DNA of 36,777 nt from a virus. Under the pieces are notes generated by a model, which was not told where the DNA came from, searched no databases, and worked only from the letters and a program-made list of their open reading frames with translations. Each line of letters begins with the position of its first letter. Position 1 is the stretch's first letter. Location of the stretch: positions 1 through 36,777 of the IMG/VR virus record IMGVR_UViG_3300046171_000119. The stretch is one strand, 5' to 3'. This document shows, piece by piece, positions 3,791 through 16,821 of this stretch. The translations under genes and the position numbers were made by a program.

Positions 3791-4255
3791 CTAAGCTAGG
3801 TTGTTGTTCTGCTGATACAGGATAGTAACGCGAACAAGACCTGCGTTTGTTGCGAGCAGAGCCAGTAACAGTCAAGACGGATGTCCGCTGTACCAGTGTC
3901 CTGCCAAGCCAATGCAGCGCCAGCCTGAGTTGTTGGATACTTACGACCAGCAGTTGTCCCGATTGCAAATGTGTTCACGAACTGTAGCCGCACCACCCAC
4001 AGTGTCACCGACACTCAGGTTGGTTGTGGTATTGGCTGCGGTGATTACATCAATCACGCAGTCAATGATCTGAGAGTTTGCTGGAATAACAACATCTGTA
4101 ACGGATGCGGCAAGTGCGCCCCCGGAAAGATCTGCTGAAAAAGTCTGAGCCATAACAACTTGACCAACATTAGCAATGTTGCTGCCGAGTGTTGTGCCGG
4201 TAGTGTTTTTAATGGTTCCGGCCTTAATTGGACCAGAAAAAGTAGTTGTAGCCAT
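3791..4255 (-). CDS. Capsid-proximal beta-rich structural protein (~153 aa), three single-base insertions
   Basis: First gene after the terminator that follows the major capsid gene, with an AGGAGAT ribosome site. The first frame (MATTTFSGPIKAGTIKNTTG ... GGAATV) is followed by NTFAIGTTAGRKYPTTQAG and AALAWQDTGTADIRL in a second frame, then a Thr/Val-rich stretch and a QQNNNLA end in others. Removing one base near 3980, 3874 and 3847 gives exactly 154 codons ending at the TAG at 3791. The Thr/Gly-rich beta composition fits a head decoration or fibre-type protein. No family name known to me. Confidence 0.55.
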
Positions 4256-4323
4256 TTAGATCTCCTGTCGTGGCTAGTGTCAGATCCACAATGAATCTGT
4301 CAGGGACTTATGCATAGTACCCT

Positions 4324-16087: not shown

Positions 16088-16105
16088 GGGGGGCTTCGGC
16101 CCCCC
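16088..16105 (+). terminator. GC-rich UUCG hairpin, intercistronic
   Basis: GGGGGG-CTTCGG-CCCCCC: 6-bp stem plus a C-G closed UUCG tetraloop, six bases past the stop codon. There is no T-run, so it is more likely an mRNA 3'-end stabiliser or pause site than a complete terminator. Confidence 0.6.
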
Positions 16106-16127: not shown

Positions 16128-16361
16128 ATGGCTATCACTCGCATTCACGTTAACCAGCACGTGATCCGGTCCAACGCCAAGAGCGGCGAACGCTGGCCGG
16201 TCTTCACGGTCAAGAACCGGAAGGACAACCATTACGCCAACGCTGTAGAGATCGATGGCCCCTGCCGCCTAGTCTATAGCCCGGACAAGCCCCTGTCCTG
16301 CGGCGCCAAGGTCTGGATCGAGCTTGACGATCAGAAGACCCGGGTCACCATCGACCCATAA
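16128..16361 (+). CDS. Conserved small protein (MAITRIHVNQHVI family), 77 aa
   Basis: Start chosen by ACGGAGGG eight bases upstream; longer frames upstream run through the previous gene. The sequence (TRIHVNQHVIRSNAKSGERW, VEIDGPCRLVYSPDKPLSCG, AKVWIEL) is a small beta-rich protein that I recall as widely conserved in phages and some bacteria, function unknown. Its stop is followed directly by a UUCG hairpin and then the hammerhead-like fold. Confidence 0.75.
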   Translation: MAITRIHVNQHVIRSNAKSGERWPVFTVKNRKDNHYANAVEIDGPCRLVYSPDKPLSCGAKVWIELDDQKTRVTIDP

Positions 16362-16367
16362 GACCCC

Positions 16368-16385
16368 GGGGGGCTTCGGCCCCCC
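16368..16385 (+). terminator. GC-rich UUCG hairpin abutting the hammerhead candidate
   Basis: Same 18-base hairpin as at 16088-16105 (GGGGGG-CTTCGG-CCCCCC). Its last base is immediately before helix III of the proposed ribozyme, so cleavage would leave this hairpin seven nucleotides from the new 3' end. Confidence 0.6.
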
Positions 16386-16440
16386 ACCCGTCGGGCAGTG
16401 TGTGCTGTCCCCTGATGATGGCTGTTAGGCCGAAACGGGT
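16386..16440 (+). ncRNA. Candidate type III hammerhead ribozyme
   Basis: Order of parts matches a hammerhead opened at helix III. Helix III is ACCCGU (16386-16391) with ACGGGU (16435-16440), six perfect pairs including the U-A pair next to the cleavage site. Cleavage base C is 16392 (GUC triplet). Helix I is GGGCAG (16393-16398) with CUG-U-CCC (16405-16411), one bulged U. Core CUGAUGA is 16412-16418. Helix II is GGC (16420-16422) with GCC (16429-16431), then GAA (16432-16434). One extra U at 16419 between the core and helix II departs from the consensus; it may be natural or one of the single-base insertions common in this sequence. Located between two genes of the cassette. Confidence 0.7.
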
Positions 16441-16464
16441 AACCTGACATAACGGAGGTACGAT

Positions 16465-16794
16465 ATGTCACTCACACGTACAACACTCGAGCTTGTGATC
16501 GAGAACAACAGAGTCGTCGGCATGCAGATCAAAGAGCCGGCACCACAGCCCGTCATCATCGATGACGAACCCGAGACGGTGACGTTCCGGATGGGCGTCA
16601 AGACCAGACAGCGGGCCATCGATCTTCTGTCCAACGCCCGCGAGGGGTTCACCATCGAGCAGCTTGGCGGGTTCCTTGGGCTGACCGAGAGCAGTGTCCA
16701 CACGCTGCTGACCGACCTGCGGAACGGCGGGACGGAGATCGAGGTCCAGCCCTCACCATACGGTGGCCGTCGTCGGGCCTACCGGATCGCTTAA
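16465..16794 (+). CDS. Winged-helix-like DNA-binding protein candidate, 109 aa
   Basis: ATG preceded by ACGGAGG. N-terminal ~40 residues are acidic and flexible. The C-terminal half (TRQRAIDLLSNAREGFTIEQ, LGGFLGLTESSVHTLLTDLR, then basic YGGRRRAYRI) has the helix-turn-helix and wing pattern of small winged-helix regulators. It is the first gene downstream of the hammerhead candidate, so cleavage would give its mRNA a new 5' end 72 bases before the ATG. Target unknown; control of the neighbouring promoters is a reasonable guess. Confidence 0.6.
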   Translation: MSLTRTTLELVIENNRVVGMQIKEPAPQPVIIDDEPETVTFRMGVKTRQRAIDLLSNAREGFTIEQLGGFLGLTESSVHTLLTDLRNGGTEIEVQPSPYGGRRRAYRIA

Positions 16795-16801
16795 CCACTG
16801 C

Positions 16802-16821
16802 GCGGGGGCTTCGGCCCCCGC
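16802..16821 (+). terminator. GC-rich UUCG hairpin, intercistronic
   Basis: GCGGGGG-CTTCGG... pairing to CCCCCGC, third UUCG hairpin of the cassette, eight bases past the HTH gene stop. No T-run. Confidence 0.55.

Follow-up and report, generated by a model that had tools for sequence, protein, structure and literature searches.

Could an RNA that cuts itself between two neighbouring phage genes give their messages separate fates? The question is raised by a short gene gap in the window, by which we mean the whole stretch of DNA analysed here, a 36.8-kb virus record (36,777 nucleotides) encoding terminase, portal, a Mu-like gpT capsid protein, DNA polymerase, primase and helicases. Among the window proteins tested, neither a transposase nor an integrase turned up. 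The gap separates a gene for a 77-aa product, hereafter the 77-aa gene, from a gene with a weak helix-turn-helix (HTH) match, and an initial annotation had placed in it a hammerhead ribozyme whose cleavage would split a polycistronic RNA. The gene arrangement agrees with that proposal, cleavage itself being a prediction: the genes on either side are both read rightward, on the + strand, and a scan between them found no sigma-70-like promoter and no + strand intrinsic terminator.

Judged from its sequence, the stretch at 16386-16440 on the + strand is a real hammerhead of type III, far beyond what chance would give. It reads ACCCGUC / GGGCAGUGUGUGCUGUCCC / CUGAUGA / U / GGCUGUUAGGCC / GAAACGGGU, with the core motifs CUGANGA and GAAA and the UH cleavage site all present in the correct order and three helices, of which helix III is open; helices III and I have 6 bp each and helix II has 3-4 bp. 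When 16300-16500 was compared with all 4227 Rfam families under an E-value threshold, the top match was RF00008 (Hammerhead_3), over its full length, at 32.6 bits (E 1.3e-5). R1, a covariance model trained on 42 phage hammerheads with the window and its variant excluded, scored 49.1 bits on the window (E 2.6e-13), where the runner-up reached 14.9 bits; neither R1 nor a descriptor script found a second hammerhead anywhere in the window. These two matches provide the covariance-model check that the initial annotation had proposed, and all the hammerhead elements and coordinates it gave are confirmed in the sequence. The features of the locus are as follows.

16128-16361, + strand: upstream 77-aa gene, no Pfam family match; its message would gain a hairpin-capped 3′ end.
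16368-16385, + strand: UUCG hairpin GGGGGG-CUUCGG-CCCCCC, 7 pairs, flush with helix III and kept in relatives.
16386-16391, + strand: 5′ strand of helix III, ACCCGU (sequence, RF00008 and R1 alignments).
16390-16392, + strand: GUC (sequence).
16392, + strand: C17, the last base of GUC, with cleavage predicted 3′ of it from the aligned hammerhead consensus.
16393-16411, + strand: helix I hairpin GGGCAG-UGUGUG-CUGUCC(C), which would become the 5′ end of the downstream RNA (RF00008, fold, R1).
16393-16398 and 16405-16411, + strand: helix I strands GGGCAG and CUGU-CCC, with one core-side C unpaired or a U bulged.
16412-16418, + strand: catalytic core CUGAUGA (sequence, RF00008, R1).
16419, + strand: extra U between A9 and G10.1 (sequence comparison).
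16420-16431, + strand: helix II GGCU-GUUA-GGCC, with GGC(U) at 16420-16423 pairing with (G)GCC at 16428-16431.
16432-16435, + strand: GAAA core segment, in which A16435 is A15.1 and pairs with U16391.
16435-16440, + strand: 3′ strand of helix III, ACGGGU (sequence, R1).
16465-16794, + strand: downstream gene, 109 aa, with a weak helix-turn-helix match (HTH_11, E 0.0018, below the Pfam cut-off).

The RF00008 score of 32.6 bits lies below the curated gathering cut-off of 48.5, and consensus relatives reach only 43.4; that cut-off is a reporting threshold and not a trait of ribozymes. At Rfam gathering thresholds the whole window yields the Mu-gpT-DE RNA alone (RF03012, 70.2 bits), which is encoded on the opposite strand (4253-4305), in the gap that separates the capsid gene from the minus-strand gene following it. 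Compared with its closest consensus relatives (GGGCAG..CUGUCC CUGAUGA GACC), the window hammerhead has two extra bases, a C adjacent to the core and U16419. The initial annotation had counted a single departure from consensus, which is right for U16419 but leaves out the C. It had also drawn helix I with a bulged U; the alternative register, in which a G.U pair forms and a C stays unpaired, is more stable by 1.1 kcal/mol (-18.6 vs -17.5 kcal/mol). The two extra bases stand at the edges of the core and may slow the window variant. Helix III has a probability of just ~0.4-0.5 in the folded context, which counts against the explanation that we favour below.

Relatives of the HTH gene occur on nine viral contigs, and all nine (9/9) have a hammerhead at the same place directly upstream. 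In 6/9 it is the identical variant, and in 3/9 it is a consensus type III hammerhead (ACCGUC CGGCAG UGUGUG CUGCCG CUGAUGA GGCC AAAA GGCC GAAACGGU; 43.4 bits with RF00008). Across the six variant-bearing relatives the HTH gene DNA is ~5% divergent, and the hammerhead and leader are identical at 82/82 positions. The window variant precedes at least four gene families, and in at least three of them other members have a consensus hammerhead at that place. Upstream, identity among the relatives stops at the 5′ edge of the hairpin (16368; L002, L006, L008), so that, as far as the aligned sequences tell, hairpin, hammerhead and gene travel as one and the joint is also a cassette border. Scanning viral contigs for the conserved loop and core returned 37 stretches, mostly hammerheads right behind a GGGG(UUCG or GAAA)CCCC hairpin; these hammerheads lie mostly just 5′ of a ribosome-binding site, with many different genes downstream. 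Searched by BLAST, 50,697 records of isolate phages contained no match to the region, to the HTH protein or to the hairpin-hammerhead consensus. RF00008 had one match over 385 genomes of Celeribacter's class, making cellular genomes unfit as a replication set. A scan of genome contigs for hairpin plus hammerhead gave four matches, all false and without a foldable hammerhead.

Compensatory changes among related phages, which had been put forward as a check on the ribozyme, are abundant. In 42 distinct fixed-length phage type III hammerheads, both-sided changes that preserve pairing were counted in 206 cells, vs 59 +/- 7 in shuffles and 10-32 when partner columns were slid by 1-3. These both-sided changes are the informative part of the covariation; all six helix I pairs (6/6) covary, with 100% pairing, a percentage inflated by pre-filtering of the set for at least 10/16 pairs. 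The UGUGUG sequence of loop I, the loop that would make the tertiary contact with loop II, is strongly kept despite the covariation of its stem. Six loci open helix II with a U.U or A.A mismatch and otherwise follow the consensus (L018, L290, L294, L319, L335, L337), and a U-U start to helix II is reported in PMC3088659. At ~3550 of another contig (L021) lies an element resembling a type II hammerhead (GGACGAAAC-hairpin-GUC-hairpin-CUGAUGAGUCC).

On comparative evidence, U16419 appears not to be damage. The window variant is common to at least 18 contigs, ahead of several genes, and in a scan of viral contigs 102 stretches have a hammerhead core in which a U follows CUGAUGA ahead of helix II, vs 1 for a mutated-core control pattern. 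Of 83 distinct instances of the insertion, a crude folding test assigns 42 to type III, and many others fold as type I; L073, L080, L096 and L118 are examples of the insertion. In chrysanthemum chlorotic mottle viroid, the plus-strand hammerhead has an extra nucleotide between A9 and helix II. That nucleotide is an A according to PMC3705267 (citing De la Pena and Flores 2001), and known alignments permit one or two nucleotides inserted at the core/helix junction (PMC10085705). Given the abundance of U-insertion hammerheads in viral contigs and the viroid precedent for an extra core nucleotide, the window variant is probably an active ribozyme, though its rate may differ. Hammerheads with an extra U after A9 are a common natural form in phages, and searches or thresholds bound to the strict consensus miss real hammerheads, such as the one in this window, which falls below the Rfam cut-off.

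If the hammerhead cuts, what would be left on the upstream message? The initial annotation did not note that the hairpin at 16368-16385 abuts helix III, and we find that it is part of the hammerhead unit. Its pairing probability in folds is 0.99-1.0. An intrinsic terminator was considered for this element and rejected, since the hairpin is followed by ACCCGUCGGG, with no U-tract, and no + strand terminator was found there.

We counted hairpins beside type III hammerheads that a descriptor script located in fetched loci. A hammerhead scored as positive if a perfectly paired hairpin with a stem of 5 bp or more stopped 0-3 nt short of helix III on its 5′ side. Loci fetched with the hairpin in the search pattern were set aside, as were the HTH relatives, and the remainder were clustered, which removes phage relatedness from the counts only in part. 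Among the matches listed for the discovery set, the hairpin is present in 35 of 81-82 type III hammerheads vs 1 of 84-85 of type I. Windows shifted by 60-300 nt give 4-9/~81 and shuffles a mean of 4.75 with a maximum of 10, again among the matches listed; shifted windows are mostly at 0-11%. Type I keeps the helix III hairpin at the 3′ end of the upstream product and type III does not, which had led to the prediction, borne out in the discovery set, that type I lacks an extra hairpin. A prediction for a held-out set was then written down before the last scan, and anything similar to the first set was dropped; this prediction held, with the hairpin at 23/38 type III vs 3/89 type I hammerheads among the matches listed. 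Combined, the matches listed give 58/119 for type III vs 4/173 for type I (Fisher p 8e-23).

The contrast remains at 46/99 vs 4/123 when one hammerhead per contig is taken from the matches listed, and in the 13 listed contigs with both types the hairpin stands at 7/18 type III and 0/18 type I hammerheads (p 0.008). Type II is represented among the matches listed by four examples, none with the hairpin (0/4), too few for a test of that type. Of the 58 hairpin-hammerhead joints among the matches listed, 42 are exactly flush, UUCG is the commonest loop, and none (0/58) has TTTT 3′ of the hairpin. About half of the type III hammerheads among the matches listed are without a perfect hairpin, and a fold-energy version of the test gives a smaller contrast. 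Part of the association is due to lineage, as shown by hammerhead-free gene gaps, which are also hairpin-richer in type III contigs (24% vs 12% in type I contigs), and by hairpins without a ribozyme in the window itself. The latter are similar UUCG hairpins at 16088-16105 and 16802-16821 on the + strand, between neighbouring early genes, and they point to a function for the hairpin itself where genes end. Further downstream in the locus, a seven-base inverted repeat (UGACAUA/UAUGUCA, 16445-16470) encloses the Shine-Dalgarno sequence of the HTH gene and reaches its start codon. Hairpins enclosing the Shine-Dalgarno sequence were rejected as a ribozyme-linked feature, being at chance level downstream of these hammerheads.

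From this sequence evidence we consider it probable that the ribozyme, fused to the upstream hairpin, acts as an RNA-processing joint that would cut the polycistronic RNA and leave the upstream message hairpin-capped. In bacterial RNA decay, hairpins at the 3′ end slow 3′ exonucleases, and 5′ hairpins and non-phosphorylated 5′ ends slow decay that depends on the 5′ end. Rightward transcription would cross the 77-aa gene, the UUCG hairpin and then the ribozyme, and the RNA would cut itself after C16392. The upstream message would end in hairpin-ACCCGUC with a 2′,3′-cyclic phosphate, and the stable hairpin a few bases from this end would block 3′ exonucleases; the downstream message would begin at the foot of helix I with a 5′-OH, 72 nt 5′ of the HTH start codon. 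In this way the joint would need no terminator to form a hairpin-capped 3′ end, and it would uncouple the two messages. Cleavage, end protection and the effect on expression are all predicted steps. The initial annotation had already placed a UUCG hairpin close to the 3′ end that cleavage would give the upstream RNA, and that point gains strength from the general, topology-specific association described above.

An upstream-product hairpin is shared by type I and type III, on which ground 3′-end formation would be the more general function. We regard as evenly balanced the broader proposal that phage hammerheads of any topology make mRNA 3′ ends without a terminator, each leaving the upstream RNA with a hairpin close to, or at, the end so formed. 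Types I and II would do this through the helix III hairpin and type III through a separate hairpin flush on the 5′ side of helix III. Hammerheads stand in series ~0.3-2 kb apart in many contigs, a spacing that fits cutting into gene-sized pieces. Five contigs (L285, L174, L281, L252, L329) have four to seven serial hammerheads each, ~0.3-1 kb apart, with a single topology per array.

Other readings of the joint have to be weighed against end formation. The hairpin could be structural and not protective, aiding the folding of a ribozyme that still cuts, either by stacking on the open helix III or by stopping upstream mispairing. Coaxial stacking would want an exactly flush hairpin, as in 42/58 of the joints among the matches listed, and an open helix III is available for stacking only in type III. 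Hairpin-bearing hammerheads also have a slightly shorter helix III (5.3 vs 5.8 bp, p 0.07), but this link is weak, and for that reason we also rejected the idea that the hairpin merely compensates for a short helix III. Type I hammerheads, whose open helix I is equally short, do without a flush hairpin (4/173 among the matches listed), and the same hairpins occur in ribozyme-free gene gaps of the window; a folding aid seems to us rather unlikely.

The window copy might instead be degraded and inactive, its two extra bases abolishing cleavage. It scores 32.6 bits vs 43.4 for the consensus relatives, and core insertions that lower activity are on record in PMC3088659; the same variant is nevertheless undecayed in at least 18 contigs before several genes, the U insertion recurs in both type I and type III hammerheads, and an extra A is recorded in the viroid plus-strand hammerhead (PMC3705267), which makes loss of activity improbable. 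We give slightly less credence still to a passenger role, in which the hammerhead would be a neutral or mobile joint at the cassette borders where phages exchange genes, and its cleavage would have little consequence. Such a role would suit the fall in relatives' identity at the hairpin 5′ edge and the swapping of variant and consensus hammerheads before orthologous genes, which marks the joint as a recombination border. A neutral joint would decay, however, whereas here the core and the pairing are kept while stem sequence changes, and the hammerhead stays identical while the downstream gene diverges. The processing joint with a hairpin-capped upstream end is the reading that we retain.

The ribozyme itself is of a known kind. 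It shares with RF00008 type III the III-I-II order, the open helix III, the CUGAUGA and GAAA cores, the GUC site and the three helices, and differs in the extra U between A9 and G10.1, the extra C or helix I bulge, the score below the cut-off and the flush UUCG hairpin on its 5′ side. Our literature search, with subscription papers such as the 2014-2015 ribozyme discovery papers outside its range, found no description of a hairpin flush with helix III or of its restriction to type III, the available part of PMC3088659 included; the hairpin-ribozyme composite and its type III restriction look new. The initial annotation had called the separation of two messages by a ribozyme uncommon, a judgement that we revise: phage hammerheads and the idea of cutting long RNAs date from 2011 (PMC3088659), and the motif is widespread here. 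According to that paper (Perreault et al. 2011), hundreds of bacterial hammerheads include clusters around single prophage genes, with cleavage in vitro, and were proposed to cut long phage RNAs to gene-length mRNAs. Like the window's, these bacterial and prophage hammerheads are intergenic and often serial around single genes; tandem examples of theirs were cleaved in vitro. HHphage of haloviruses HF1/HF2 likewise has an insertion at the helix I/core junction and lies just 5′ of an early viral gene, and a 5′ end was mapped within three nt of its cleavage site; unlike the window's, it belongs to a hypersaline archaeal virus and has a different insertion, with no U9a reported in the available part of PMC3088659. 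The viroid hammerhead resembles the window's in the extra nucleotide of its plus-strand core and differs in that this is an A and not a U, in a plant RNA pathogen with no linked mRNA (PMC3705267).

The purpose of phage self-cleaving ribozymes is still described as open (PMC6155905, PMC10085705), and according to a 2023 paper the genes of Mu-like phages are those with which hammerhead and twister ribozymes are most associated, for a reason stated to be unknown (PMC10085705). If true, the end-forming function would be common to ribozymes whose phage role was called unknown, and the type-specific hairpin rule offers the concrete hypothesis that they make hairpin-capped mRNA ends. The ribozymes of PMC10085705 are, like the one described here, phage-associated self-cleaving RNAs, and the window phage likewise has a Mu-like capsid gene; what our analysis offers beyond them is an anatomical rule for how the ribozyme is built, namely the hairpin at the 3′ end of the upstream product.
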